Shown here: one piece after another, positions 1 through 16,898 of the stretch
Position numbering within the stretch: position 1 is the first letter of the stretch
Layout of the letters: each line of letters begins with the position of its first letter
Assembly (NCBI RefSeq): GCF_015710575.1
Contig: NZ_CP065373.1
Span: forward strand, 434,001-498,000
From: Mycolicibacterium mengxianglii
GTDB lineage: Bacteria > Actinomycetota > Actinomycetes > Mycobacteriales > Mycobacteriaceae
Reading direction: 5' to 3'
Length of the DNA: 64,000 nt
Program-made: the position numbers and the translations under genes
Notes under the pieces: generated by a model
Seen by the model: only the letters and a program-made list of their open reading frames with translations
Told to the model about the DNA's origin: nothing
Databases searched by the model: none

Positions 1-452
1 CCGGCATCACGGGCGGCGGCGATCAGCGTGTGGCCCATGACATTCGGGTCGGCGTACGGGGTGCCGCCGTGGTCGTGATGCAGGTAGTGGAACTCGCCGA
101 CCGAGGTGATACCGGCCAGAACCATTTCGCCGTACACACCGCGGGCGAGGCGGTAGTAGGCCTCAGGTGTCAGCCGGCCCGCCGCCTGATACATCACCGT
201 GCGCCATGTCCAGAACGTGCCGCGATCACGCTGGGTACGCGAGCGCAGCGCCCGGTGGAAGGCGTGGGAATGCGCATTCGCCAGCCCGGGCAGCACCAGG
301 CCGGCCAGCGTGAGGTCACCCTCGCGGCGGTCGGTGTCGGGGGTGACCGCGGTGATGTAACCGTCGGCCACCTCGATGGTGACCGCATCGGCAACGGTGT
401 CGCCACCGAGCCAGGCGTGCTCACACCAATAACGGTTCGGCTGTGCGGTCAC
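1..452 (-). CDS. hutF: Formimidoylglutamate deiminase HutF (3' end cut by window edge)
   Basis: The first 150 codons of an amidohydrolase-superfamily protein; the rest lies beyond the left edge. The product would deiminate N-formimidoyl-L-glutamate to N-formylglutamate in the five-step histidine degradation route. The metal-binding motif NAHSHAFHR is at residues 59-67, with His61 and His63 as the first zinc ligands, preceded by a VLPGLAN strand typical of the family. The GTG start overlaps the upstream hydrolase stop as GTGA, showing translational coupling. It is the last visible gene of the hutU operon. hutI (imidazolonepropionase) is not in the window and would be expected next, which is an inference. 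Confidence 0.9.
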   Translation of the reverse strand, partial: MTAQPNRYWCEHAWLGGDTVADAVTIEVADGYITAVTPDTDRREGDLTLAGLVLPGLANAHSHAFHRALRSRTQRDRGTFWTWRTVMYQAAGRLTPEAYYRLARGVYGEMVLAGITSVGEFHYLHHDHGGTPYADPNVMGHTLIAAARDA

Positions 453-1678
453 TGCGAAATCCAGTCGGCCATCACGTCGGCGAGCGCGTCGGCGCCGGTA
501 CGGCAATCGCTGATCTCGGCGTATTCGTCCGGCGAATGAGAGACGCCGGTGGGGTTGCGCACAAACAACATCGCCGTCGGCAGCACCGCCGACAGCACGC
601 CCGCGTCGTGGCCGGCCGCGGTGGGCAGCACCGGCAGCTCGCCGAACCGGGGTGTCAGGATGCGCTGAATGCGCTCGCGCGGTTCTCCCGGGAAGTGCAC
701 GGCCGGCGATACGGACTCGACGTCGATGTGTACCGAGGTGCTGTCGGCTCCGGCATTGCGGGCGGCGTCGGCGGTGATGTCCTCGACGAGGGCGCGCAGG
801 GTGTCCTCGTCGGCGGCGCGGGCATCGAGCCACGCCAGTACTTCGGAGGGAATCGCGTTGGCGCCGTTGGGGGTTACCCGAACCTTGCCGAACGTGGCGA
901 CGGCCTGATGGGCGGCCGCGCGGGTGCGGGCGTCGTGCACCGAGGTGGCGAAGGTGAGCATCGGATCGCGGCGGTCGACCAGCCGGGTGGCCCCGGCATG
1001 GTTGGCCTCCCCGCAGAATGAGAACCGCCAGCGGCCGTGCGGCCAGATCGCCGAGGCCACCGCGAGCGGTTTGTCCACCAGATCCAACGCGCGGCCCTGT
1101 TCCACATGCAGTTCGACGTAGACCCCCACCCGCTTGGTCAGCGTCGGATCCGCGCCGACGTGCTTGGGGTCGCGGCCTGCGGCGGCCATCGCCTCGGCCA
1201 GGGTGGTGCCATCGGCGTCACGCAACCCGAGGGCGCGTTCGGCGGTGACGGCCCCGGCCGAGAGCTGCGATCCGACACAGGCGACGCCGAAGCGGGCCCC
1301 CTCCTCGTCGGAGAACGCGGCCACGGCCACGGGGCGCTGCGGCGTCACGCCCCGGCCCTGCAACTGGTCGATGGCGGCGAAGGCGGTGATGATCCCCAGC
1401 GGGCCGTCGAAGGCGCCGCCGTCGGGAACCGAGTCCAGGTGCGAGCCGGTGACGAAGGCGTCCCGAGGGTCGCCGGTGTGGCCGGGTGGCAGCCACCAGG
1501 CCCAGAGGTTGCCGTTGCGGTCCTCGTCGACGCTCATGCCGCGCTGTCGGGCTTCGCCGGTGAACCATTCTCGCAACGTCAGATCTGCTGTGCTCCAAGC
1601 GAATCGACGATACCCACCGCTGGTGGGATCCCGGCCGACGTCGAGGATGGACTCCCACAACGAGTCGAACTTGCTCAC
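449..1678 (-). CDS. M20-family amidohydrolase (allantoate/N-carbamoyl amidohydrolase type), probable hut step
   Basis: A 409-residue zinc amidohydrolase of the allantoate amidohydrolase/N-carbamoyl-amino-acid hydrolase family. Metal-binding signatures are visible: GSHLDSV near residue 80, an Asp about ten residues later in [14 protein letters not shown] near 123-130, ELHVEQG near 195 and GHDAG near 357. It sits between hutU and hutF with ATGA/GTGA overlaps on both sides. Histidine degradation through HutF needs an N-formylglutamate deformylase (HutG) and no hutG is seen here, so this enzyme is the natural candidate for releasing glutamate from the N-formyl intermediate. That role is inferred from position; the family assignment is secure. 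Confidence 0.85.
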
Positions 1679-3345
1679 TTGGTGTCCTGCATGGGGATAC
1701 GTACTCCGCGCTCGACGGCGACCTCGGCGGCGTGCTCATAACCGGCGTCGACGTGACGGATGACGCCCATGGCCGGATCGTTGGTCAGGACGCGCTCCAG
1801 CTTGCGTGCGGCCAGCTCGGTGCCGTCGGCGACGCAGACCTGCCCGGCGTGAATGGAGCGCCCGATCCCGACGCCGCCGCCGTGGTGGATGGATACCCAG
1901 GAGGCGCCGGAGGCGGTGTTGACCAGCGCGTTGAGCAGCGGCCAGTCGGCGATTGCGTCGGAGCCGTCGGCCATGGCCTCGGTCTCGCGGTACGGGGAGG
2001 CCACCGACCCGGAATCCAGGTGGTCGCGGCCGATGACGATGGGCGCGGAGAGCTCGCCGCTGGCCACCATCTCGTTGAACTTCAGGCCGGCCTTGTGCCG
2101 CTCGCCGTAGCCCAGCCAGCAGATGCGGGCCGGCAAGCCTTCGAAGGCCACCTTTTCGCCGGCCATGGTGATCCAGCGTCGCAGGTGCTCGTTGTCGGGG
2201 AACAGTTCCAAGATGGCGCGGTCGGTGGCCTCGATGTCCTTGGGGTCACCCGAGAGCGCCACCCACCGGAACGGGCCGAGGCCCTCTTCGAACTGCGGCC
2301 GGATGTAGGCGGGCACGAATCCGGGGAAGTCGAACGCGCGGTCGTAACCGGCTTTTCGGGCCTCGTCGCGGATGGAGTTGCCGTAGTCGAACACCTCGGC
2401 ACCGCGGTCCTTGAACCCGACCATCGCCTCGACCTGGCGGGCCATCGAAGCCTGGGCCTGTTCGGTGAAGTAGCCCGGATCCTTGTCGGCCATCTTGGCC
2501 ATGTCCTCGAGGTCGATGCCGATGGGCAGATAGGACAGCGGATCGTGGGCCGAGGTCTGGTCGGTGACGATGTCGATGGGCGCCTGCCGGGCCAGAAGTT
2601 CGGGGAACACCTCGGCGGCGTTGCCGACGAGTCCGATCGACAGTGGTCGCTTGGCGTCGCGGGCCTCGATGGCCTGGCGCAGGGCGTCGTCGAGGTCAGC
2701 GGCTTTGGTGTCGAGGTAGCGGTGGGCGATGCGGCGGTCGATGCGGGTCTCGTCGCAGTCCACGCAGATGGCCACCCCCTCGTTCATGGTGACCGCCAGC
2801 GGCTGGGCGCCGCCCATGCCGCCGACGCCGGCGGTCAGGGTGATGGTGCCGGCCAGCGTGCCGCCGAAGCGTTTCTTGGCCACTGCGCCGAAGGTCTCGT
2901 ACGTGCCCTGCAGGATTCCCTGGGTGCCGATGTAGATCCACGACCCGGCCGTCATCTGGCCGTACATGATCAACCCGGCGGCCTCGAGTTCGCGGAAGTA
3001 CTCCCAGTTCGCCCAATCACCAACAAGATTGGAGTTGGCGATGAGTACCCGCGGGGACCACTCGCTGGTCCGCAGGATGCCGACCGGTTTGCCCGACTGC
3101 ACCAGCAGGGTCTCGTCGTCCTCGAGGTCGCGCAGGCTGGCCACGATCGCGTCGAAGGCCTCCCAGCTGCGCGCGGCCCGGCCGGTGCCGCCGTAGACGA
3201 CGAGTTTGTCGGGGTGTTCGGCAACCTCGGGGTCGAGGTTGTTGGACAGCATCCGCAGCACGGCTTCCTGCTGCCAGCCCTTGCAGGACAACGTGGTTCC
3301 GCGGGGGGCGCGCACGGGGCGCGGGCCTGAGATCTGCTCGGTCAT
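1675..3345 (-). CDS. hutU: Urocanate hydratase HutU
   Basis: A 556-residue protein, the usual urocanase length, converting urocanate to 4-imidazolone-5-propanoate with tightly bound NAD+. The family fingerprints [12 protein letters not shown] near the N-terminus, [19 protein letters not shown] and [10 protein letters not shown] are all present. The reading frame is open 17 codons further upstream, but the ATG at 3345 follows a GAAGGAAG ribosome-binding site and begins MTEQISG, so it is the likely start. It is first gene of a unit continuing into the M20 hydrolase and hutF, with ATGA overlap at the 3' end. A 16-bp palindrome lies about 95 bp upstream, in the region shared with the divergent iclR gene. 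Confidence 0.95.
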
Positions 3346-3439
3346 GATCTTCCTTCGCAAGGACGGGCCGGTGGTGGCGTTGTTGGGTCCCAGCACACCT
3401 CATCCGACCGCCTTGCCGCAGGCGTGCGTCGGCGATACC

Positions 3440-3455
3440 GTCTCGTATCCGAGAC
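3440..3455. promoter_or_regulatory. IclR-type palindromic operator between hutU and iclR1
   Basis: GTCTCG-TATC-CGAGAC, a perfect 6+6 inverted repeat; with flanking CC/GG the arms are 8 bp. It lies 16 nt upstream of the TTG start of iclR1 and about 95 bp from hutU. Close relatives occur upstream of hutH, the hisD-like gene, the ADH and iclR2. Autoregulation of iclR1 and control of hutU are inferred. Confidence 0.75.
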
Positions 3456-3470
3456 GGAAGGAATACCGCG

Positions 3471-4259
3471 TTGTCGAGTGCTTCCCCGGCCGTGGGCCGG
3501 GCACTGAATGTGCTGATGGCGCTGGCGGCGCGCACCGGACCGGTCAGCGCAGCGACACTGGCCCGCGAGCTGAACATCCCCCGGTCGACCGTGTACCACC
3601 TGCTGGAGGTCCTCGTCGATCACCACTTCGTGGTGCATCTACCCGAGCAGCGTGGCTACGGGCTCGGGGTGGCGGCCTTCGAGGTCGGTTCGGCCTACAT
3701 GCGCCACGAGCCCTTGGAGTTGCTCGCGCGGCCGATACTGCGGCGGATGGTCGACCAGATCGGCGAAACCGCCCATCTGGGGGTGCTTCACGGCGCCGAA
3801 ACCCTGTATCTCATCAAGGAACAGCCTGCCGTGGCGCGAGTGCCGGTGACGCTGGTGACCGACGTCGGCGTGCGGCTGCCGGCGCAGCTGACGGCAAGCG
3901 GGCGATCCATCCTGGCGCACCTGCCCGCCCCGCAGGTGCGCGCTCTGTTTCCCGGGAACACCGCGTTCGTGGTCCGGACCGGCCGCGGTCCGTCGTCCCT
4001 GCCGCAATTGCGGCAGCTGCTGGCTGCCGAACGAAGCCAGGGCTGGGCCGAAGAGGACGGCTTGATCACCGAGGGGCTGCATTCGGTGGCCGCCTGCGCG
4101 TTCGACCATTCCAGCCGCCCGGCGGCGGCGATCAGCGTGACGAGACGCGCTGACCGGTCCCCGGTGGCGGTGTCCGATATGGTGCGCGCGGTGCGCCATG
4201 CAGCCCAGCAGCTGACCTGGGCCATGTCGGGGGTGGCCCCGCCTGGCTTCTTCGATTGA
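3471..4259 (+). CDS. IclR-family transcriptional regulator (hut regulator 1)
   Basis: A 262-residue IclR protein: N-terminal winged helix-turn-helix (residues about 8-65, with the PRSTVYHLL recognition helix) followed by the IclR effector-binding domain (about 80-250). The start is TTG at 3471, chosen because GGAAGGAA lies just upstream and the first residues match the family. It is transcribed divergently from hutU, with a perfect palindrome between them. It is paralogous to the IclR protein at 12986-13795, which shares the motif pattern LGV-AFEVG-YMR. Probable role: sensing a histidine-pathway compound and controlling the surrounding operons. The effector is unknown; urocanate or histidine would be guesses. 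Confidence 0.9.
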   Translation: MSSASPAVGRALNVLMALAARTGPVSAATLARELNIPRSTVYHLLEVLVDHHFVVHLPEQRGYGLGVAAFEVGSAYMRHEPLELLARPILRRMVDQIGETAHLGVLHGAETLYLIKEQPAVARVPVTLVTDVGVRLPAQLTASGRSILAHLPAPQVRALFPGNTAFVVRTGRGPSSLPQLRQLLAAERSQGWAEEDGLITEGLHSVAACAFDHSSRPAAAISVTRRADRSPVAVSDMVRAVRHAAQQLTWAMSGVAPPGFFD

Positions 4260-4280
4260 TCCGGACAGCGCCGTGGCGAC

Positions 4281-5378
4281 TCAAAGCCCTTGCAAACCAG
4301 CAGCTTTGGCTGACTGCCAGTCAAGGCTGTCGATGGCGGTCAGCACGGCGTCCTCGGCATCACGGTCGCCGACGGTGACACGCACCCCCTCGCCTTCGAA
4401 GGCGCGTACCGAAACACCCTGTTCCACACAGGCATCGGCAAATTCGAGCGCACGTGACCCCACGGGGAACCAGACGAAGTTCGCGCCGCTGACCGGAGTC
4501 TTCAGTCCGCGCCTGGCGGCTTCTCGACGTAGGTACTCCCGGCCGTCGCACACTACCTTGACGATGTGATCGGTGTGGGTGATATCGCTCCAGGCAGCCC
4601 GGGCGCCGGCTTCGGCCAGCAGACTCAAACCGAATGGCGGTGCGGCAGCACGCACGTTGTCGGCGATGTCGGGGTGGGCGATCATGTAGCCCGCCCGCAG
4701 TCCGGCCAACCCGTAGGCCTTCGAGAAGGTACGGAACACAACAACATTGGGATGGTGGCGTACCAGGCCCAACCCGTCGACATCGGCGGTGGCGAATTCC
4801 TGATAGGCCTCGTCGAGCAACACCAGCACGTTGTCGGGCACCGAGGTGACGATCCGCTCGATCTCGGTGCGCGGCAGCTCGGTGCCCGTCGGGTTGTTGG
4901 GGTTACACACGATGATCGCCCGGGTGGCGGGGGTGACCGCGGCCAGCATGGCGTCGACGTCGTGGGTGTGGTCGGCGTCCAGGGCCACCGGGACCGCGGT
5001 GGCACCGACGACACCGATGAGGATCGGGTACGCCTCGTAACTGCGCCAGGCGTGCACCACCTGCGTTCCCGCCCCGGTATAGGCGGCCAGCGTGTGTTGC
5101 AGCAGGGCCAGCGATCCGCCACCGACGACGATCTGCTCGGGGGTGACCTGCAGGCGTTCGCTGAGGTCCTCGACGAGTTGGTCTCCTTGCAACGACGGGT
5201 ACAGGTTCGCGTGTGCAGCGGCGTCCACGATGGCCTTCTGCACCAGCGGAGACGGCGGCACCGTCGACTCGTTCGACGATGCCCGCCAACGGATTTGGCT
5301 CAGCCCGGCAGGGCGTGAATAGCGAGGCAACTCGGCCACCGTGGGGCGGGGCCGCACGGTGGGGACGGGGTTGGTCAC
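4281..5378 (-). CDS. HisC-like PLP aminotransferase (histidinol-phosphate/aromatic aminotransferase family), catabolic context
   Basis: A 365-residue fold-type I aminotransferase. The PLP-lysine region reads FSKAYGLAGLRAGY; the CNPNNPTG and LLDEAY motifs bind the cofactor. By similarity it resembles HisC and the mycobacterial aromatic aminotransferase Pat. It overlaps the hutH stop by ATGA and is not among his biosynthesis genes, so a catabolic role is likelier than histidine synthesis. A plausible reaction is interconversion of histidine and imidazolepyruvate, or use of another aromatic amino acid. It converges on iclR1 with a 21-bp gap. Family call firm, substrate unproven. Confidence 0.85.
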   Translation of the reverse strand: MTNPVPTVRPRPTVAELPRYSRPAGLSQIRWRASSNESTVPPSPLVQKAIVDAAAHANLYPSLQGDQLVEDLSERLQVTPEQIVVGGGSLALLQHTLAAYTGAGTQVVHAWRSYEAYPILIGVVGATAVPVALDADHTHDVDAMLAAVTPATRAIIVCNPNNPTGTELPRTEIERIVTSVPDNVLVLLDEAYQEFATADVDGLGLVRHHPNVVVFRTFSKAYGLAGLRAGYMIAHPDIADNVRAAAPPFGLSLLAEAGARAAWSDITHTDHIVKVVCDGREYLRREAARRGLKTPVSGANFVWFPVGSRALEFADACVEQGVSVRAFEGEGVRVTVGDRDAEDAVLTAIDSLDWQSAKAAGLQGL

Positions 5379-6942
5379 TGCAGCGCGCCGATCGCGGCCT
5401 CTGCAGCTGCCACCAGCGCCCCGCTGCGAGCCAGGTCGACGACAGCACTGATCTCCGGCGCCAGGTAGCGGTCGGTGCCGGGACCGGGAACATGCTCGCG
5501 GACCGCGGCCACGACGGCCCCGGTCGCCGGCGACGGAGCCAGCGGGGCGCGCAGGTCCAGGGCGCGGGCGGCGGTGAGCACCTCGATGGCCAGCACCCGG
5601 GTGAGCCCGTCGATCGCGCGCCGCAGCTTGCGTGCCGCTGACCAGCCCATCGACACGTGGTCCTCTTGCATGGCCGAGGACGGGATGGAATCCACGCTGG
5701 CAGGAGCGGCCAGGCGCTTGAGTTCGGAGACGATCCCGGCCTGCGTGTACTGGGCGATCATGTGGCCGCTGTCGACCCCCGGGTCATCGGCCAGAAAGGC
5801 ATTGAGGCCGTGGTTGCGCGCGGGGTCCAGGAACCGGTCGGTCCGCCGCTCGCTGATGGACGCCAGATCGGCCACCACGATCGCCAGGAAGTCGAGCACA
5901 TAGGCCACGGGAGCGCCGTGGAAGTTGCCGTTGGACTCGACGCGGCCGTCCAGCGTGACCACCGGGTTGTCGACGGCGCTGGCGAGTTCACGCTCGGCGA
6001 CCAGCCGGGCGTGCTCGGCGGTGTCTCGGGCAGCGCCGGCGACCTGGGGAGCGCAGCGCAGCGAATACGCGTCCTGGACGACGGTGCAGTCGTCGGTCTT
6101 GTGGCTGGCCACGATCTGCGAATCAGCCAGTAGCCGTGTCATATTCGCCGCGGCCAGCGCCTGCCCGGGGTGCGGGCGCAATGCCTGGAGGTCGGCTGCG
6201 AAGACCCGTTCGGTTCCCAACAGGCCCTCTACGCTCATGGCCGCGGCGACGTCGGCCAATCGCAACAGCACATCGAGGTCGGCGAGTGCGAGAACCAGCT
6301 GGCCGAGCATCCCGTCCGTGCCGTTGATCAGTGCCAGGCCCTCTTTCTCGGCCAGCACCAACGGTTGCAGTCCGTGCGCGGCCAGCGCGTCGGCCGCGGC
6401 GGTGAGTTCACCCTCGCGGGTGCGGACCTGCCCTTCACCGATCAGGGCCAGCGCCACGTGCGCCAGCGGGGCCAGGTCCCCGAGCAGCCCAGGCTGCCGT
6501 ATTCGTAGACCACCGGCGTGAGGCCGGCCGAGAGCAGCCCGGCATAGGCTGCCACCACCTCGGGGCGCACTCCGGTGCGGCCCGTGGCCAGGGTGGACAA
6601 CCGCAGCAGCATCAAAGCACGTACGACCTCGCGTTCGACCTCGCTGCCGGAACCGGCGGCGTGGCTGCGAATCAGGCTGCGCTGCAACTGAGTACGCCGC
6701 TCTTGGGGAATGTGACGCGTCGCCAGGGCGCCGAAGCCGGTGGACACCCCGTAGACCGGAGTCGGGTTGGCGGCCAGGGCGTCAATGCGCACGCGGCTGT
6801 GGGCGACGGCAGCCATTGCCTCGTCGGACACCTGCACCGCGGCATCGCCGCGGGCTACCGCGATGACGTCAGCAACGCTGACCGGACCAATGCCCACCGT
6901 GACAACGGAGTGCAGCGCGGCTGTCGGGGAGGTCGAAAGCAT
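5375..6942 (-). pseudogene. hutH: Histidine ammonia-lyase HutH, split by a one-base frameshift at the MIO triad
   Basis: Two overlapping reading frames (6942-6442 and 6457-5375) together make one histidine ammonia-lyase, which deaminates histidine to urocanate. The first frame reads to YEYGSLGCSG (residues 147-155), then goes out of frame. The second resumes with the expected DLAPLAH sequence. The Ser and Gly codons end in a run of four Gs (CCCC at 6478-6481 on the + strand). Adding one base restores a 522-residue protein, the normal length. The triad is Cys-Ser-Gly, a variant I recall from actinobacterial HutH, not Ala-Ser-Gly. Start ATG 6942 follows AGAAGG. Whether this is a true null mutation, a sequencing slip or a site rescued by -1 slippage cannot be decided here. 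Confidence 0.85.
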
Positions 6943-6959
6943 CGTGAACGTAACCTTCT

Positions 6960-6975
6960 GTCTTGTATTGCAGAC
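6960..6975. promoter_or_regulatory. IclR-type operator upstream of hutH (main site)
   Basis: GTCTTG-TATT-GCAGAC, 5 of 6 symmetrical positions, 18 nt upstream of the hutH ATG and touching the ribosome-binding region. It belongs to the same 16-bp family as the sites at 3440, 11131, 12939 and 13822. A weaker second site begins exactly 20 bp further out. Confidence 0.7.
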
Positions 6976-6979
6976 TCAA

Positions 6980-6995
6980 GTCTTGCATTTGAGGG
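6980..6995. promoter_or_regulatory. Secondary operator half-site upstream of hutH
   Basis: GTCTTG-CATT-TGAGGG: a perfect left arm with a degenerate right arm, 20 bp (two helical turns) from the main site at 6960. The same 20-bp spacing is seen upstream of the hisD-like gene. This suggests paired dimer binding on one face of the helix (inference). Confidence 0.5.
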
Positions 6996-7029
6996 TAGCG
7001 CTGGACTGGCCGTGTGACACAGGGTGACT

Positions 7030-8247
7030 TCAGCGAGGGCGGAGCAGGGTGCTGCCGCGTTCGCGGAGCTCGGCGACGCTGGTGACCCCCAGCAGCGCCA
7101 GGGTGCGGGTGAATTGCTCTGCGAGCAGCCCAATCACCTTGTCGACACCCGCCTCGCCCCCGGCCACGAGTCCCCAGAGATACGGCCGGCCGATGAAGGC
7201 GGCGTCGGCACCCAGGGCCAGTGCGGTGGCGATATCGGACCCATGCCGCACACCGGAGTCGACGAACACCGCGAAGTCCGGGCCGGCCGCGGCGCGCACG
7301 GGTGCTACCAGGTCGATGGGTGCCACGGTGCGATCCAGTTGGCGGCCGCCGTGGTTGGACAGGTGCACGCCGTCGATGCCGAGTTCGCGCGCGCGGGCAG
7401 CATCCTCGGGACCGACTGGCCCCTTGAGCACCACGGGGCCGGGCCACAGGTCACGGATGCGGGCCAGATCCTCCCAGTTGACCGAGGGGTCGAACTGTTT
7501 GGTGATGTTGTCGATGGTGTATCCGTCACCGCCGGAGCCGGCGGCGACATTGGCGAATTCCAAGGCGGGGCTGGTCAGCATCTTGGTCCAGTAACCCGGG
7601 CGCAGCCCGATGTCGACGAGGCCCTTGAGAGTCATCTGCGGGGGAATCGTCAGACCGTTGCGCACGTCTCGCACCCGGTATCCGGACACCGCGGTGTCGA
7701 CGGCGATCTCCAGCACTCGATAGCCCGCCGCCCAGGCGCGGCTCACCAGTCGCGCGGTGAGGTCACGGTCTTTCCAGATGTAGAGCTGAAACCACCGGTC
7801 GGTGCTGCCTGCGCCGTGGTGGCCGGCGAGCTCTTCCAGGGCGGTGGAGGCCATCGTGGACAGGACGTAGGGGATTCCGGCGCGGCCGGCGGCCCCCGCG
7901 ACTGCCGGCTCGCCGAGCGCTGAGATCATCCGCGTGTAGCCGGTGGGCGCCAGCCCCAGCGGCACTGCGGCGCGCTGGCCCAACAGCGTTGTGGCGGTGT
8001 CGACATGGGCCACATCCACCAGCACGCTCGGGGTGAACTGCCACTGACGGAACGCCGCAACGTTGTTGGCCAGGGTCAGTTCTTCGTCAGCGCCGCCGTC
8101 GACGTAATCGGCTACCGGGCGGGGCAGCCGCCTGCGGGCGAGCCGGTGCAGGTCCTCGACGGTCTTGCACGCCTCGAGCCGGGCGACGCGGCGATCGAGG
8201 CGGGGTGGCTTGACCTGAATCAGGGCGCGGACTTCACCGACTTTCAT
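7030..8247 (-). CDS. FMN-dependent alpha-hydroxy-acid oxidase/dehydrogenase (LldD family)
   Basis: A 405-residue TIM-barrel flavoprotein of the lactate/glycolate/mandelate oxidase family. The active-site segment LSNHGGRQLD carries the catalytic base His and the substrate-binding Arg. The barrel Lys lies in VVLKGPV, and VFVDSGVRHGSD and IGRPYLWG bind the FMN phosphate. The frame extends 48 codons upstream, but ATG 8247 overlaps the permease stop as ATGA and starts MKVGEVRALIQ, the usual family beginning. It is the last gene of a hisD-like/permease/oxidase unit. In this hut setting it might oxidise imidazole-lactate to imidazolepyruvate; that substrate is a guess, and other 2-hydroxy acids are possible. 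Confidence 0.85.
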   Translation of the reverse strand: MKVGEVRALIQVKPPRLDRRVARLEACKTVEDLHRLARRRLPRPVADYVDGGADEELTLANNVAAFRQWQFTPSVLVDVAHVDTATTLLGQRAAVPLGLAPTGYTRMISALGEPAVAGAAGRAGIPYVLSTMASTALEELAGHHGAGSTDRWFQLYIWKDRDLTARLVSRAWAAGYRVLEIAVDTAVSGYRVRDVRNGLTIPPQMTLKGLVDIGLRPGYWTKMLTSPALEFANVAAGSGGDGYTIDNITKQFDPSVNWEDLARIRDLWPGPVVLKGPVGPEDAARARELGIDGVHLSNHGGRQLDRTVAPIDLVAPVRAAAGPDFAVFVDSGVRHGSDIATALALGADAAFIGRPYLWGLVAGGEAGVDKVIGLLAEQFTRTLALLGVTSVAELRERGSTLLRPR

Positions 8248-9674
8248 GCAGGTGCTGATTCCGGCTCGTCGGCGTGCGGGTTCGCCGAGGACGGGATGGC
8301 GAAGGTGGGTTCCGGGTAGCCGGTGCGGTGGGGGTAGCGCTTCATCAGCGCGATGTAGAGGCCGCCGGCGACGAAGATGCCCAGGATCCACGAAATGTCC
8401 GCACCATCAAGCCAAGTCGCGATGGGTCCGGTGTAGAAGGGGCTGGCGATGAACGGGATCTCGACGACGATGCCCACGAGATAAGCGGTCATGGCACGCC
8501 AGTCGACGCCACCGTAATGGCCGCGCGGCTTGAACATGTCATCGATGCTGTAGCGCTCCTTGCGCACGACATAGAAGTCGGCCAGGTTGATCGAGGTCCA
8601 CGGGATCAGGAAGTAGGCCAGCAGCAGGATGAAGTTGCTGAAGTTGGTCAAGAAGTTGTCCTTGCCCGCGATGCCGATCGTGGTGGCGACCGCGGCGACG
8701 ACCACGATCAACCCGGCGCGCATCAGCGGGGACACCTTGATCTTGAAAACCGAGTTGAGCACCGTGGTGGTGGACATGAACATGCCGTAGAGGTTCAACG
8801 AGTTCACGCCGATGACGCCGGCGATGATGATCAGGAAGAACAGCGCATGGAACCCGACGGCCTGGTCGACGATGAAGTCCACGGATCCACCCGCGAAGGC
8901 GTCGGCGGCGACGGCGGTGGCGGCGGCACCGAAAGCGAACATGAACATCGTCGACAGCACGGCGCCGGCGTAGGTGAACCAGAACGACGCACGCACCGAA
9001 GTGTCCGCGGGCAGGTAGCGCGAGTAGTCGGCAACGTAGGGCGCATAGGTCAGCTGCCAGGTCGCCGCGATCGCAGTCGCCGCCAGGAACAGCGCCCACG
9101 AGAAGTTGTCGGTATTCCAGGCCGCCGCAAAGTCATTGGTGCTCACCAGGCGGTAGCTCAGGTAGACAAACGCCAGCCCGCTGATCACCGAGAGCCATTT
9201 CTCGGAGGCGTGGATGAGCCGGTATCCGAAGATGGCGAGTACCACGGTGAGCGCGACGACGATGATGATCGAGGCGTCGATGTTGACTCCGGTCAGGCTG
9301 GAGAACGCCGCACCGCCCTGCACGCCGGTGGTGGCGAAGTACCCGAGGTACATCAGGATCACCAGGATCAACGGCAGCACGGCGCCGTAGAAGCCGAACT
9401 GTGCGCGGGACTGAATCATCTGCGGGATCCCGAGGATCGGCCCCTGCGCCGAGTGCAGAGCCATGAAGACCGCACCGATGAGATTGCCGACCAGGCTGGC
9501 CAACAATGCCCACGGCAGCGAGAGTCCGATGCTCACCGAGATGGCGCCGGCGGCGATGGCGGTGACTTGAAGGTTGGCGCCGAACCACAGCGTGAACAGG
9601 CTGCGGGCGCGGCCGTGGCGCTCAGCGTGCGGTACGTACTCGATCGAGCGTTGTTCGGGATTGAGCACAGACAT
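8244..9674 (-). CDS. NCS1-family nucleobase/heterocycle:cation symporter
   Basis: A 476-residue membrane protein with about twelve hydrophobic segments, resembling purine-cytosine permeases. The N-terminus ERHGRARSLFTLWFGAN is the NCS1 signature before the first helix, and GYFATTGVQGG and APYVADYSRYLP are further family segments. NCS1 carriers import heterocyclic nitrogen compounds (cytosine, allantoin, hydantoins, purines). The gene follows the hisD-like dehydrogenase by 62 bp with no operator in between and overlaps the oxidase gene by ATGA. Its cargo is therefore probably the substrate of this cluster, perhaps an imidazole compound (inference). A paralogue sits at 25516-26925. Confidence 0.88.
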   Translation of the reverse strand: MSVLNPEQRSIEYVPHAERHGRARSLFTLWFGANLQVTAIAAGAISVSIGLSLPWALLASLVGNLIGAVFMALHSAQGPILGIPQMIQSRAQFGFYGAVLPLILVILMYLGYFATTGVQGGAAFSSLTGVNIDASIIIVVALTVVLAIFGYRLIHASEKWLSVISGLAFVYLSYRLVSTNDFAAAWNTDNFSWALFLAATAIAATWQLTYAPYVADYSRYLPADTSVRASFWFTYAGAVLSTMFMFAFGAAATAVAADAFAGGSVDFIVDQAVGFHALFFLIIIAGVIGVNSLNLYGMFMSTTTVLNSVFKIKVSPLMRAGLIVVVAAVATTIGIAGKDNFLTNFSNFILLLAYFLIPWTSINLADFYVVRKERYSIDDMFKPRGHYGGVDWRAMTAYLVGIVVEIPFIASPFYTGPIATWLDGADISWILGIFVAGGLYIALMKRYPHRTGYPEPTFAIPSSANPHADEPESAPA

Positions 9675-9736
9675 GGTTGGTTTCCTTTGGTGGACCCTGG
9701 AAAGAGGTTGAGCTGCTGAGCTTTTGGTCGACCAGA

Positions 9737-11074
9737 CTAGCGCTGTTCGAGCCGGCGGGTGACCGCGAACTCGTGGGCGGGGAAGCCCTCGTGTCGGGTG
9801 AAGGCAATGACGGTGTCCGACATCCGCTTGAGCGCCTCGGGGGTGGACTTGGCGACGGCGGTCCGCTTGCGGAAGGCATCGGCGGTCACGCCGCTGCTGA
9901 CTTTGGCGTAGCCGCTGGTGGGCAGCGCCGCGGGGCAGCCGATGATGAAGTTGGCCATGGACACTGTGGTGTGCTGACCGATCAGGATCTCGCCGGCGTC
10001 GACGAGGAGGTCCAGCACGTGGTCTTCATCGCGGACCGCGATCTGCATGTGCTCGGGGGCAAAGGCGTTGGCGACTTCGGCAGACTCGTCGACGGAGGTC
10101 GTCAGAACCGCGCCGCCGTTCTTGCCCAGCGCTTGACGGGCGTACTCGGCGCGGTTGTCGGGCAGGTCGAGCAACTGCTTGGCGACCTCGACCTGGACGG
10201 CGTCGATGAGGGCCTGGCTGTCGGTGACCAGGACACTGGTCGAATCCGCGCCGTGTTCGGCCTCATTGAGCAGATCCGCCGCGAGCAGGTAGGGGTCGGC
10301 CGAGTCGTCAGCCAGGATCAGTGACTCGCTGGGGCCCAGCAGCATGACGCTGACGGTGCCGTAGCGCTGTACCTCGACCTGTGCGCAGGTGACCGGCGGG
10401 CTGCCGGGTCCACAGACCTTGCGGACTTGCGGGACGCTCTCGGTACCGAACGCCAACGCCGCGATACCGGCCGGGCCGTTGGCCCGGAAGACGTCGTGGA
10501 TACCCAGCTCATCGGCCACGACCAAGACAGCGGGGTCGACCTCGCCGTCGCCACCTGGGATCGGCGGCACCACAACGGCGATCTTCTGCACACCGGCCAC
10601 TACGGCAGGGGTGCCCAGCTGAGCCATCACCGACGGGTAGGAACCCTTGCCGCTGGGCACGAACAACCCGGCGCTGGCGATCGGGGACACCTTCTCGCCG
10701 ACGGTCAGACCCGGCTCGCTCTCGAAGCTCCAGTCGCCATGCTTGGTCAGCTGCTCGTTGAAGGACTTCAGGTGCGCCAACAGATCGCGGATCGCCGCGA
10801 GTAGTTCCGGGCTGATCTTCTCGCGTGCGGCGGCGAACTCCTCGGCCGAGACGCGGATGCGATCCGGGGTGATCGAGATCTTGTCGAACTTCTCCAGCGC
10901 GCGGATCAGGCCGGCGTCACCGTTGAGGCGCACGTCTTCGATGATCTCGAGCACGCCTTCACGCAGACTGGGATCGAAGATGTTCGCGCTGCCGCGGTCG
11001 ATCAGGTCAGCGCGATCGGCGGCCGACATCGCCTGCCAGAGGCCGCGCTCGAGGATGGGGCGGTCGGTTGACAT
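9737..11074 (-). CDS. HisD-like dehydrogenase (divergent histidinol dehydrogenase family), catabolic
   Basis: A 445-residue member of the histidinol dehydrogenase family, which oxidises an alcohol through an aldehyde to a carboxylate with two NAD+. The catalytic Glu-His pair is kept (E341-H342 in FAPEHMQ), as are H274 (NEAEHGADS) and H434 (PAHEFAV). Against E. coli HisD the metal and substrate residues differ: Gln259 becomes Glu271, Asp360 becomes Asn375 and His367 becomes Ala382 (GTNHVLPT reads GCPAALPT). It is therefore unlikely to be the biosynthetic enzyme and may use another substrate; the sulfopropanediol dehydrogenase HpsN is a known precedent for such divergence. ATG 11074 is preferred over 11080 because GGGAG is then about 8 nt upstream. 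Confidence 0.85.
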   Translation of the reverse strand: MSTDRPILERGLWQAMSAADRADLIDRGSANIFDPSLREGVLEIIEDVRLNGDAGLIRALEKFDKISITPDRIRVSAEEFAAAREKISPELLAAIRDLLAHLKSFNEQLTKHGDWSFESEPGLTVGEKVSPIASAGLFVPSGKGSYPSVMAQLGTPAVVAGVQKIAVVVPPIPGGDGEVDPAVLVVADELGIHDVFRANGPAGIAALAFGTESVPQVRKVCGPGSPPVTCAQVEVQRYGTVSVMLLGPSESLILADDSADPYLLAADLLNEAEHGADSTSVLVTDSQALIDAVQVEVAKQLLDLPDNRAEYARQALGKNGGAVLTTSVDESAEVANAFAPEHMQIAVRDEDHVLDLLVDAGEILIGQHTTVSMANFIIGCPAALPTSGYAKVSSGVTADAFRKRTAVAKSTPEALKRMSDTVIAFTRHEGFPAHEFAVTRRLEQR

Positions 11075-11130
11075 GTCCATGGCTCCCAGTGGTTCGGTCT
11101 GACGGTGAGGTAGGCATCACATTCGCCGTG

Positions 11131-11146
11131 GTCTTGTATACGAGAC
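11131..11146. promoter_or_regulatory. IclR-type operator upstream of the hisD-like gene (main site)
   Basis: GTCTTG-TATA-CGAGAC, close to the full consensus, 57 nt upstream of the ATG at 11074. Member of the five-site family. Probably controls the hisD-like/permease/oxidase unit. Confidence 0.75.
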
Positions 11147-11150
11147 TTTG

Positions 11151-11166
11151 ATCTCCAGTGCAAGAC
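11151..11166. promoter_or_regulatory. Secondary operator half-site upstream of the hisD-like gene
   Basis: Read on the minus strand, GTCTTG-CACT-GGAGAT: perfect arm on one side, weak on the other, exactly 20 bp from the main site. It matches the paired layout upstream of hutH. Confidence 0.5.
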
Positions 11167-11200
11167 TTTAATAACGGTGGACCTGAATGTCGACGGCAGA

Positions 11201-11929
11201 TCAGAGGTTGCTCGCTCCTGCGACCGGTATCAGCGCCCCAGTGAGGAACGGGGCCTGATTGGACAGCAGGAAGGCGACGGTGGTGCCGATGTCGGCGGCC
11301 TCGCCGAACCGGCCGGCCGGAATCCGGGCGAGCAGTTCGCGGCGGATCTGCGGATCGTCGAGGTATTGGGCGGTCATATTGCTGCGGAAGTATCCGGGGC
11401 AGACACACGTGACAGCCAGCCCTTCTGCACTCCACTCCATGGCCAACGTGCTGGCCAGCGCGGCCGCCGCCGCCTTGCTGGCGTTGTAGTCGGCGAAGTG
11501 TGTTTCGGGGCGCACGGCATTCACCGAGGCGTTGACCACGATTGCACCGGGTCGATCGAGGGTGCGGTGCGCGGCCTGCGCACCGTTGAGGATCCCGACC
11601 ACATTGACGTCGAGCACGCGGCGGAACGTAGCGGGATCGAGCTGCTCGGCAGGTTTGCCTTCGCCGTCGATGCCGGCGTTGAGAAACACGCCGTCGAGCC
11701 CGTCGAGCGCGGCAACGGCGTCGTCAAAAGCCTGATTCACCGAGTCGGCATCGGCGGCTTCGCACACACTGCCCCCGACGGCGACGCCACGGTCGACAGC
11801 GGCAGCGACGGACTGCTCCCGGGTGCCGGTGACCCACACGTGATGGCCCTCGGCGGTGAGGTGCCGTGCGCACATGTCTCCGATTCCGCTGGTTCCGCCC
11901 GTGATCAGATACCGGCGCGGCGTCGTCAT
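11201..11929 (-). CDS. Short-chain dehydrogenase/reductase
   Basis: A 242-residue classical SDR. The cofactor loop TGGTSGIG is at about residues 9-16, LNAG near 85, and the catalytic Tyr-x-x-x-Lys reads YNASK near 145, with a conserved Ser (ASVNA) before it. ATG 11929 overlaps the stop of the upstream zinc-type dehydrogenase by ATGA, so the two are one operon controlled from the operator at 12939. It probably oxidises a hydroxyl intermediate of the same pathway as the adjacent ADH; the substrate cannot be read from sequence. Confidence 0.85.
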   Translation of the reverse strand: MTTPRRYLITGGTSGIGDMCARHLTAEGHHVWVTGTREQSVAAAVDRGVAVGGSVCEAADADSVNQAFDDAVAALDGLDGVFLNAGIDGEGKPAEQLDPATFRRVLDVNVVGILNGAQAAHRTLDRPGAIVVNASVNAVRPETHFADYNASKAAAAALASTLAMEWSAEGLAVTCVCPGYFRSNMTAQYLDDPQIRRELLARIPAGRFGEAADIGTTVAFLLSNQAPFLTGALIPVAGASNL

Positions 11930-12936
11930 CGGCCACACCTGATCAGGACCTTGATGGCCTCGCGGATACCGCCGCCGGACATGAATTCCGGGATCTCGGC
12001 GAGGTCGACGGTGTGGGTGACGATGGCGTTGTATCGGCCCGGTTCAGTGGCCAGTGCGGCCAGGGCTTCGTCGACATGACGGTCGTCGAAGCCCACGCTG
12101 CCCACGACATGCAGGCTGTGTTCCACGATGGTCGCCGGCATGACGGTGGCCGATGCGTGCCCCAGCGCGATGAGCAAGATGGATCCGCCGAACTCGGCGG
12201 CGTCGATCGCGGCGTTCAACGAGCCGGGGTAGCCGGCGGCGTCCACCACCACCGAGTACCGCGTCCCTTCGGCCAGTGCGCCGACGCTGGCGCCCTGGGC
12301 GCGGGCGAGGTCGGCGCGCCGGGGATTCGGTTCGGCGACGGTGAACGCGGTTGCGGGCCATCGGCGGGACATCTCGGCATGTGCGAGGGCGCCGATCGGG
12401 CCGTAACCGAGGATGGCGACCGTCTCGGGATGCTGGACGGCAAGCTGGTCGACGGCGCACATGACCACGGCCAGGGGCTCGGCCAGTACCGCATCGGCGG
12501 CGTCGAGGTCGGCCGGCACGCGGTAGAGGCTGTCGCCCGGAATCGCCATCGCTCCCGCGTAACCACCCGGGCGGGCCTCGCCGAGCCATTGCAGGTCCTG
12601 GGCGAGCCGGTCGGCCTCCTTGCGTCCATCCACGACGCGGCACGGAATTCGCGAATCGGCGACCACCCGGTCCCCGGCTGCGAACTGCGGGTGCCGCGAT
12701 TGGCGAACTCGGCCGGCGACCTCATGGCCCAGCGTGGCCGGCCAGTAGGCCACCCAGTCGCCGGTCTGCAGAACGTGCAGGTCGGACCCGCAGATCCCGG
12801 CGTAGTCGACGTCGACGAGAACGTCGCCGTCGGCAAGTTCGCTGAGCTCCCGGGTGCCGACGGTCAGCGATAAATCCTCGCCCAGCAGCAAGGCGGTCGT
12901 GTGAACCGGCCCGCCCGGTTCTGTGATGCTAGACAT
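11926..12936 (-). CDS. Zinc-type medium-chain alcohol dehydrogenase (sorbitol/threonine dehydrogenase-like)
   Basis: A 336-residue MDR protein. Catalytic zinc ligands are visible as Cys in GICGSDLH, His-Glu in LGHEVAG and Glu in LAEPLAV. The NAD-binding loop reads ILGYGPIGALAH. The four-cysteine structural zinc lobe is missing; only one Cys remains around IPCRVVDG. The frame is open further upstream, but ATG 12936 begins a normal N-terminus. No ribosome-binding site is visible, and the operator GTCTTGAATACCAGAC starts 3 nt upstream, which suggests a leaderless mRNA. First gene of the ADH-SDR operon. Confidence 0.85.
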   Translation of the reverse strand: MSSITEPGGPVHTTALLLGEDLSLTVGTRELSELADGDVLVDVDYAGICGSDLHVLQTGDWVAYWPATLGHEVAGRVRQSRHPQFAAGDRVVADSRIPCRVVDGRKEADRLAQDLQWLGEARPGGYAGAMAIPGDSLYRVPADLDAADAVLAEPLAVVMCAVDQLAVQHPETVAILGYGPIGALAHAEMSRRWPATAFTVAEPNPRRADLARAQGASVGALAEGTRYSVVVDAAGYPGSLNAAIDAAEFGGSILLIALGHASATVMPATIVEHSLHVVGSVGFDDRHVDEALAALATEPGRYNAIVTHTVDLAEIPEFMSGGGIREAIKVLIRCGR

Positions 12937-12938
12937 AA

Positions 12939-12954
12939 GTCTTGAATACCAGAC
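12939..12954. promoter_or_regulatory. IclR-type operator at the ADH start
   Basis: GTCTTG-AATA-CCAGAC, 5 of 6 symmetric positions, ending 3 nt from the ADH ATG. The position would block the promoter or the start of a leaderless transcript. Member of the five-site family. Confidence 0.7.
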
Positions 12955-12985
12955 GTTGTGGTGCTGGGGACTGGCGGGACGCCCC

Positions 12986-13795
12986 TCAGGCGATGCCCAG
13001 GGCGTCTTCGTCGCCGTGCGCCTCGTCGACCCGCGCGCCGAAGCTGGCCGAGAACTCCGCCGCCGTCGAAACCACGGCCCGGGCCATCTCTTTGGTCTGT
13101 TCGGCGGTCTTGGTTGCCGACATGTAGGCGACACCGAGGGCAGCGACGGCACGACCGTCCCGGGTCAGCACAGGACTGGCGATGCAGTCGATGCCCGAGG
13201 TGGTGGTGCCTCGCTCGTAGGCGTAACCGTTGTCGCGCACCGCCCCGAGCACCTCACGCAGCGCCGACAACGAGGACGGGCCTTCGCCCGTGCGCGACGT
13301 CCAGGAGTAGCCGTCGTAGAGCGCGGAGAGCTGCTCGAAGTCCAGTCGGCTCAGGATGGCGCGGCCGACGGCGGTCAAATGTGCAGGTAGGCGCGACCCC
13401 ACCTCGGTCACCAGACGTACGCCGGGTGTCAGCGGCTCCCGTTTGTCCAAATAGATGACATCGGTGCCCTGCAAGACTGCGAGATGCGACGTTTCATTGG
13501 TGGCATTCGTCAGGGCCAACATGTAGCGCTGACCGGCGCGATGCAACGGCCCCGAGCGCATGTATGACGCGCCGACTTCGAAGGCCGACACCCCCAATGT
13601 CCACGCCCGCTGATCGGGCCAATACGACACGAACCGGCGTTCCCGCATCACATTGAGCAGATGATGGGTGGTGCTCTTCGGCAGGGTGAGCGTCTCGGCG
13701 ATCTCCATGGTCGCCATCGGGACTCCGCGGCGCGCCAACAAGTCCAGCACGTCCATGACGCGCTCCGCCGACTTCACACGACTCGCAGTCGCCAC
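12986..13795 (-). CDS. IclR-family transcriptional regulator (regulator 2)
   Basis: A 269-residue IclR protein with an N-terminal winged HTH (recognition helix PKSTTHHLL) and a C-terminal effector domain. GTG 13795 is preferred because GGAGAGG lies about 8 nt upstream; the frame is open 13 codons further. It is clearly paralogous to the regulator at 3471-4259. It lies upstream of the ADH-SDR operon on the same strand and has its own copy of the shared palindrome 27 nt upstream, consistent with autoregulation. Which paralogue acts at which site cannot be told from sequence. Confidence 0.9.
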   Translation of the reverse strand: MATASRVKSAERVMDVLDLLARRGVPMATMEIAETLTLPKSTTHHLLNVMRERRFVSYWPDQRAWTLGVSAFEVGASYMRSGPLHRAGQRYMLALTNATNETSHLAVLQGTDVIYLDKREPLTPGVRLVTEVGSRLPAHLTAVGRAILSRLDFEQLSALYDGYSWTSRTGEGPSSLSALREVLGAVRDNGYAYERGTTTSGIDCIASPVLTRDGRAVAALGVAYMSATKTAEQTKEMARAVVSTAAEFSASFGARVDEAHGDEDALGIA

Positions 13796-13821
13796 AGCCG
13801 CACCTCTCCCGCACCGCGCCC

Positions 13822-13837
13822 GTCTCGCATACAAGAC
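13822..13837. promoter_or_regulatory. IclR-type operator upstream of iclR2
   Basis: GTCTCG-CATA-CAAGAC, 5 of 6 symmetric positions, 27 nt upstream of the GTG start at 13795. Fifth member of the operator family; autoregulation is inferred. Confidence 0.72.
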
Positions 13838-15956: not shown

Positions 15957-16838
15957 TCAGGCCCTGACGCCGACTGCGAAGATCCGCAAGGCCCCGAAGA
16001 TACCGTGGCCACCGATATAGAGCCGCTTGGTGTCAAAGCCGGCAACGTCCTTCATGGTCTCCGCCCCGAAGCGCGCCGGTGCCTGGCTGCCGACAATGGT
16101 GACGTCCGCGCCGAGAAGCGCATGCCTGACCCCGGTTCGCTCGTCTCCGGTGGCGGTCGCCACCACTTCACCGATGCTGCGTTGACCCCCTGATGCGGGG
16201 ACGGCGCTGCAGGTGAGGTGATTCTCGTCGAGATAGTTGCTGAGCTGGTCGACGGAGACGTCGGCGCCGACGACCAGGCTCAGATTGCCGAGATTGACGG
16301 TGATGTCGGTGTTGCCTCCGGTGGTGAGCGCGGCGTCGGGATCGGGTCGCATGTCACCGGCGAGGGCCGCTCGGACGGCAGCGCCGAACACCTCGGTGTC
16401 GGGCTCATCCAGAGATTGCTCGGGCAGCATGATGCCCGGGTTGAGCAGCCCGGCCGGGTCGAACGCCTTCTTGATCGAACGTTGCGCGGCGATCTCGACC
16501 GGCGTGAAACGCTGGGTCATGAACTGGATCTTCTCGGTGCCCACACCGTGCTCGCCGGTGATGGTCCCGCCCAAACGCAGTGCCGCTTCGATGATCTCGT
16601 TGTTGGCCGCCGCCAGCGCTGCAGCAGCCTTCGGATTGTCTTTGTCGTAGAAGGTGGTGGGGTGTAGATCCCCGTCACCCGCGTGGCCGCACACCGCGAT
16701 GAACAGCAATCCGTCCCGGTGCCGGGTAGCGGTGGCTTGAATCGCCTCCTGCATCTCGGGGATCCGATTGCGCGGAACAGTGACGTCGCCGATGAAGAAA
16801 CCCTTACCGCTGGCCACCAGGGAGTCGGGCGCGTGCAA
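15957..16838 (-). pseudogene. Truncated glycolate/D-lactate oxidase-like remnant (GlcD C-terminal half joined to a GlcE-like domain)
   Basis: The first 140 residues match the C-terminal domain of FAD-linked GlcD-type oxidases: VCGHAGDGDLHP near 50, GGTITGEHGVGTEK near 91 and a FDPAGLLNPG end. The remainder (about 165-293) resembles a GlcE-type FAD-binding segment. The N-terminal FAD-binding domain of GlcD is missing. Upstream the frame stays open to about 16892, where a TGA ends it, and no flavin-binding N-terminus is found there. The TTG at 16838 is only a nominal start. A decayed or truncated gene is the simplest reading; a genuine short protein is less likely. It borders a gene-poor stretch. 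Confidence 0.65.
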
Positions 16839-16898
16839 GCGGCCGTACCACAGTGCGGCAGTGGACCGGAAGCCGCGGTGAGCAGGCGGCAGTCACAC

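Follow-up and report, generated by a model that had tools for sequence, protein, structure and literature searches.

A 64,000-nucleotide stretch of the Mycolicibacterium mengxianglii genome (GCF_015710575.1, one contig of 5.96 Mb, NZ_CP065373.1; genome positions 434001-498000, hereafter the window) carries two IclR-type regulators, HutR (iclR1) and IclR2, among histidine utilization (hut) genes and a set of dehydrogenase and transport genes, and five near-identical palindromes at the promoters of these genes raise the question of whether they form one regulon or two. Comparisons with related genomes make it reasonably probable, in our view, that there are two linked regulons on one operator core. 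An initial annotation had proposed that the five palindromes mark a single enlarged hut regulon, and all five sites that it listed were present, with our predicted assignment to operator classes given here:

3440..3455: class 1 (HutR) operator, the single palindrome GTCTCGTATCCGAGAC between hutU and hutR, arms GTCTCG/GTCTCG
6960..6975: class 2 operator of hutH and an aminotransferase gene (hutH-aminotransferase)
11131..11146: class 2 operator of the hisD, permease and flavin mononucleotide (FMN) enzyme genes (hisD-permease-FMN)
12939..12954: class 2 operator of the alcohol dehydrogenase (ADH) and short-chain dehydrogenase/reductase (SDR) genes (ADH-SDR)
13822..13837: class 2 operator of iclR2, with no 20-bp partner site in the window

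The pattern GTCTYGNATNCNAGAC was exact at four of these sites and had one mismatch at 6960, and its core, GTCTNNNATNNNAGAC, occurred five times in the 5.96-Mb genome, exactly at the five noted sites (backward control, one copy). Across a genus sample of 118 genomes (own genome included), GTCTNNNATNNNAGAC was found at 55 places, counted by hand from the listing, which split into 5 in the own genome, 8 beside HutR genes in five other genomes and 42 elsewhere, the latter amounting to ~0.36 per genome over the 117 other genomes. Allowing one mismatch added two places genome-wide (backward control, 2 forward and 3 reverse), and these were set aside as lying inside coding frames with Pfam matches (a FAD_binding_2 gene and a major facilitator superfamily gene). 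With up to three mismatches the window held 31 matches compared with a mean of 26.98 (standard deviation 6.90) in dinucleotide shuffles, and because this count is no better than shuffles the signal is confined to near-exact sites. A matrix built from the five sites scored them at 22.4-27.2, with the next scores in the window being 11.3 (at 11151), 10.0 (6980), 9.0 (10966) and 8.9 (12919), and for three of these four next-best matches the distance to a primary site is exactly 20 bp. Five further mycobacteria, as well as Nocardia and Streptomyces, have the module sites, meaning those of the four class 2 promoters, at the matching promoters (hutH lying outside the stretch of Mycobacterium sp. DL99). 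The sites look like IclR-type operators and mark five promoters, which carry them also in relatives that have the genes.

The predicted operators fall into what look like two classes, and this is apparently the new point, the palindrome itself being already known. Class 1 arms read GTCTCG/GTCTCG in 10 of 10 hutR/hutU sites, the window's included, whereas class 2 sites, at the iclR2, ADH-SDR, hisD-permease-FMN and hutH-aminotransferase promoters, have GTCTTG in one arm and, for the most part, a second site exactly 20 bp off. Among mycobacteria, the GTCTTG arm was present in 22 of 23 module sites (the 23rd reads ATCTTG) versus none of 12 HutR sites (nine hutR/hutU sites and three hutH sites of genomes with HutR only); adding Nocardia and Streptomyces gave 26/30 versus 0/13, and 2 of 24 HutR sites of the wider order had the arm. 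Fisher tests on the strict GTCTTG counts were extreme, yet they overstate certainty, as sites of related genomes are non-independent, and we do not lean on them. For the second feature, we called a partner where at least 5 of 8 outer letters matched at exactly 20 bp; Streptomyces, where iclR2 and ADH share one site, does not enter the counts for these two promoters. The initial annotation had seen no further sites in the window, and there is indeed no other GTCTNNNATNNNAGAC there, but it had missed these partners:

6980..6995: 20-bp partner of the hutH operator, with a partner in 7/7 IclR2-type hutH promoters
11151..11166: 20-bp partner of the hisD operator, with a partner in 8/8 genomes
12919..12934: 20-bp partner of the ADH operator, overlapping the first ADH codons, with a partner in 7/7 genomes

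At the iclR2 promoter a partner was found in 4/7 genomes and none in the window, and at HutR sites in 0/10 hutR/hutU promoters, 0/3 HutR-type hutH promoters and 1/24 order sites.

These two site classes can be set against the distribution of the two regulators, which lie in the window as follows:

3471..4259, plus strand: iclR1, the HutR orthologue, TTG start, Pfam IclR_C and HTH_IclR
12986..13795, minus strand: iclR2, second IclR-type regulator, GTG start preferred, Pfam IclR_C and HTH_IclR

A longer TTG frame of iclR2 begins inside the operator, and the GTG start region is the same in relatives. IclR2 is not a HutR orthologue, as seen from a mean identity of 36.9% between the groups, group-specific residues and its being a separate gene in the same genome, and a comparison of 11 HutR-type with 8 IclR2-type sequences revealed consistently different recognition helices (PRS-S/T-x-YHLL versus PKSTTHHLL). 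In an order sample of 397 genomes from 85 genera, with matches accepted to E 1e-65, HutR relatives occurred in 115 genomes (own included) and 36 genera; among the 30 best-scoring loci, the window being one, the palindrome lay within 200 bp upstream of hutR in 23 and at 464 bp in one, and in six it was not found in the stretch covered. Elsewhere in the order, the arms of HutR sites mostly read GTCTGG or GTCTGA. IclR2 had a match in only one of the 118 genus genomes (accepted to E 1e-70) and one of the 397 order genomes (best six candidates per genome scored), both times the own genome, and the named relatives that carry it fall outside both samples.

Genomes holding one regulator serve as natural swaps. 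HutR (68-71% identical, beside hutU) occurs without an IclR2 match in five genus genomes; in all five, as in the window, where iclR1 adjoins hutU, hutR sits beside hut genes, and the palindrome stands just before hutR, with a second before hutH in three, all of them single and without a GTCTTG arm. The reverse case is offered by Mycobacterium aquaticum, Mycolicibacterium sp. P1-18 and Streptomyces shenzhenensis, where a HutR search with E up to 1e-30 returned nothing except IclR2 (38-40% identity), where four, four and two exact core sites, respectively, are retained, all in the module, and where hutU is located elsewhere in the genome with no palindrome within ~1.5 kb. Because HutR-only and IclR2-only genomes keep only their own class, site class follows regulator, and two linked regulons appear likelier than one. 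The alternative, in line with the initial annotation, is one enlarged hut regulon in which HutR and IclR2 alike bind every one of the five sites, sharing or competing for them. That all five have GTCTNNNATNNNAGAC and lie within 10.4 kb would suit it, as would recognition helices similar in outline, but arm sequence and 20-bp pairing divide the mycobacterial sites and the three IclR2-only genomes lack a palindrome at hutU, so that with the classes tracking HutR and IclR2 separately in relatives we consider a single regulon unlikely.

In the two linked regulons that we propose, HutR would control hutU, the genes following it and itself from the single palindrome, and IclR2 would control itself together with ADH-SDR, hisD-permease-FMN and hutH-aminotransferase from the altered palindrome with its one GTCTTG arm. 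Second sites two helical turns away are mostly present, and IclR2 probably binds as side-by-side dimers. It most likely represses, as its sites overlap the ADH start codon region and closely precede the hutH and iclR2 starts, and an inducer would release it. The gap from primary site to start is 17 bases for hutH, 26 for the iclR2 GTG, 50 for hisD and 94 for hutU. At 12919-12954 two tandem operators flank the ADH start codon, and operator letters also encode the first ADH residues. The sites, their division into two classes, their conservation and the gene families are observed, and protein-site pairing, repression, tetramers and substrates are all points that we infer.

Several observations count against this proposal. 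The GTCTTG rule has exceptions in the Nocardia iclR2 and hutH sites, the Streptomyces iclR2/ADH site and the one ATCTTG site, and the related genomes behind all site-class counts are non-independent samples. Pairing at iclR2 is weak, besides being absent in the window, and under a stricter criterion, by which the 20-bp offset must outscore every other offset, partners stood in 8/8 hisD and 7/7 ADH promoters, 5/7 hutH promoters and 1/7 iclR2 promoters. The argument for repression is one of site position, because a consensus promoter scan yielded one promoter against 0.8 expected, nothing above chance. Lastly, HutH, which the route proposed below needs, is frame-split in this assembly.

The genes under the two operator classes, with the scores of their curated family models, are these:

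1..503, minus strand: amidohydrolase, probably hutF, running off the window, Pfam Amidohydro_1 (locus L054, 9073-10503)
449..1678, minus strand: allantoate-amidohydrolase-like hydrolase downstream of hutU, NF006770 634.2 bits, cut-off 372
1675..3345, minus strand: hutU, urocanate hydratase, TIGR01228 917.9 bits, cut-off 375 (scanned as 1675-3396)
4281..5378, minus strand: HisC/Pat-like aminotransferase, overlapping the hutH stop, NF002878 374.2 bits, cut-off 374
5375..6457, minus strand: hutH C-terminal piece, TIGR01225 from model position 150
6442..6942, minus strand: hutH N-terminal piece, match ending just past the GSLGCSG stretch
7030..8247, minus strand: FMN-dependent 2-hydroxyacid dehydrogenase, Pfam FMN_dh
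8244..9674, minus strand: NCS1-family permease, Pfam Transp_cyt_pur, TIGR00800 146.3 bits, below the cut-off of 353.1
9737..11080, minus strand: variant histidinol dehydrogenase, TIGR00069 373.9 bits, cut-off 243.8
11201..11938, minus strand: SDR dehydrogenase, Pfam adh_short_C2
11926..12936, minus strand: zinc-type ADH, overlapping SDR, Pfam ADH_N (scanned as 11926-13152)

A second amidohydrolase, probably hutI, comes next outside the window (Pfam Amidohydro_1; locus L054, 7898-9076), and the names hutF and hutI follow from gene order. Overlapping gene pairs (hutH/aminotransferase, permease/FMN and ADH/SDR) point to three operons. The best solved relatives are a putative phenylalanine aminotransferase (4r2n) for the aminotransferase and (S)-mandelate dehydrogenase (6bfg) for the FMN enzyme. 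As for hutH, the gene is present with an operator before its start, as initially annotated, but is split into two frames. The break falls just after the GSLGCSG stretch, which we take to be the methylidene-imidazolone (MIO) motif, and hutH is one open frame in 11/11 relatives tested. A genome-wide search for a second copy found none, leaving the split hutH as the sole copy, and the break is either a real mutation or loss or an assembly error; intact copies exist in relatives.

A HisD protein search of named genomes returned 33 loci, among which the iclR2-ADH-SDR-HisD-permease-FMN set recurs in seven relatives (Mycobacterium sp. DL99, M. frederiksbergense, M. aquaticum, M. komossense, Mycolicibacterium sp. 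P1-18, Nocardia jiangxiensis and Streptomyces shenzhenensis), with hutH and the aminotransferase gene next in six of the seven, the exception being the DL99 stretch. In Pseudoclavibacter helvolus, ADH-SDR-HisD-FMN occurs but lacks the operator motif. At that locus (L019, 8220-16156), which adjoins an ABC transporter, a thiamine-diphosphate enzyme and a cysteine-desulfhydrase-like gene come after the four genes, and the matrix scan gave a single weak match (10.9), inside the ADH gene.

From these gene families, the module would most likely take up and oxidise histidine-like compounds, in the case of the HisD variant histidinol. The FMN enzyme would convert imidazole-lactate to imidazole-pyruvate, which the aminotransferase would then aminate to histidine, and HutH would pass the histidine on to the HutU pathway. 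It is the FMN enzyme, the aromatic-type aminotransferase, HisD and HutH together that suggest a route from histidinol and imidazole-lactate/imidazole-pyruvate through histidine to urocanate; the module probably channels its predicted substrates, histidinol and imidazole-lactate, towards histidine and HutH. The roles of ADH, SDR and permease are guesses. A biochemical imidazolyl-lactate route of such a kind was reportedly described in Pseudomonas by Coote and Hassall in 1969.

The HisD variant has an altered zinc site. At all 33 loci the zinc-ligand Gln is replaced by Glu and the zinc-ligand Asp by Asn or Ser, and Ala stands at the position of the His that precedes VLPT in Escherichia coli, while the catalytic Glu-His pair is retained; in the window protein the zinc ligands read Glu/Asn and the pair lies in APEH, the roles of zinc-ligand and catalytic residues being those given in the available part of PMC11382572. 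When 21 of these genomes were searched for further HisD, the variant was the only HisD match in 14, many of which are metagenome-assembled genomes of unknown completeness, and the other seven also carry a canonical HisD (QAEH; GDY...NHVLPT). Besides the variant, the own genome carries a canonical HisD and another copy with a GDK stretch. The variant lies inside a his operon at three Bacillota loci (L038-L040) and one Armatimonadetes locus (L044), with neighbours by family of hisB, hisA-like and hisF at L038 and hisC, hisB and hisF at L044 (some scores below curated cut-offs), and with the context of L039 and L040 assessed from neighbour likeness alone. It is beside hisG at L021, stands alone as HisD match in the genomes of L021, L038, L040 and L044, and lies between hutU and hutH in the Chloroflexi hut clusters L030, L034 and L035. 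Because it is the sole HisD in genomes and stands in his operons, the variant most likely functions as a histidinol dehydrogenase, in this window in a breakdown context. We dropped the idea that the replaced ligand residues mean no histidinol dehydrogenase, the variant being the sole HisD in genomes, and an HpsN-type diol dehydrogenase, in a set of ADH, SDR and HisD like the Hps set, was ruled out by motif and his-operon context.

Taken further, IclR2 and its four promoters may make up an undescribed, horizontally scattered histidinol/imidazole-lactate utilisation regulon with an operator dialect of its own and a variant HisD, its zinc-ligand pair exchanged, serving breakdown rather than synthesis, in which the GTCTTG arm and the 20-bp tandem would let two sister repressors read neighbouring sites unconfused, a reading that we put forward tentatively and would stop short of calling probable. 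The literature searched, thin on subscription papers, held no description of the enlarged gene set (HisD variant, permease, FMN enzyme, ADH and SDR), as the initial annotation had surmised, and no paper on genes for histidinol or imidazole-lactate catabolism was found in it. The module might instead serve another 2-hydroxy acid or alcohol, with the substrates of HutH and HisD shifted and the histidine link reflecting shared ancestry. A HisD variant without the usual zinc-ligand residues would be in keeping with this, as would the Pseudoclavibacter genes beside a thiamine-diphosphate enzyme with no hutH in the stretch; however, with the variant as sole HisD in 14/21 genomes and in his operons at four loci, and with hutH followed by the aminotransferase gene in the module of the window and 6/7 module relatives, we judge another substrate unlikely. 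That the palindromes are chance occurrences or a repeat artefact we reject as practically negligible in probability on genome-wide count and conservation, since, although the three-mismatch window count equals chance, the core sites are confined to the cluster within the genome and recur at orthologous promoters in other genera.

Outside these genes, a GlcD-like (glycolate oxidase) gene at 15957-16892 has the C-terminal part only and continues into a weakly GlcE-like stretch; six upstream frames tried for its N-terminal part had no Pfam match.

The genomes that carry only HutR, only IclR2 or the two together form a natural set for following how operator specificity diverges between related regulators, and the module supplies candidate genes for the use of histidinol or imidazole-lactate as nutrients. 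As the variant is the sole HisD in 14/21 genomes, its altered zinc site is of interest for histidine biosynthesis too.

Among known systems, HutR of Corynebacterium resistens has the operator GTCTGWWATWCCAGAC, as reported in the accessible text of PMC8222616 after Schroder et al. 2012. To the extent of that text, its regulon resembles the window in an IclR-type regulator beside hut genes and in a GTCT-NNNATNNN-AGAC core identical to the window sites, so that the palindrome taken initially as one without description has a published core; the arms differ, those of the window's hutR/hutU site being GTCTCG, and the window goes beyond it in the second regulator and the HisD-permease-FMN-ADH-SDR genes. 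The available portion of PMC3350403 has hutR in corynebacterial hut clusters, names hutH, U, I, G and R for C. resistens and, in a figure legend, refers to further genes, left unnamed, in the corresponding regions of other species. The window's HisD is like histidinol dehydrogenase in scoring above the TIGR00069 cut-off and keeping the catalytic Glu-His pair, and unlike it in Glu/Asn for the Gln/Asp zinc ligands and Ala for His before VLPT. As far as the excerpt of PMC11382572 goes, it shares with the 2,3-dihydroxypropane-1-sulfonate (DHPS) 3-dehydrogenase HpsN the use of a HisD-fold dehydrogenase in catabolism, but HpsN has the motif G-R-Y-A/S-H where the window protein reads GKGSY. Tandem IclR-family palindromes with centres 18-22 nt apart are taken, in the text available of PMC8222616, as agreeing with tetramer binding, and the window pairs at 20 bp are alike in spacing, with the difference that here pairing separates the sites of one regulator from those of the other.

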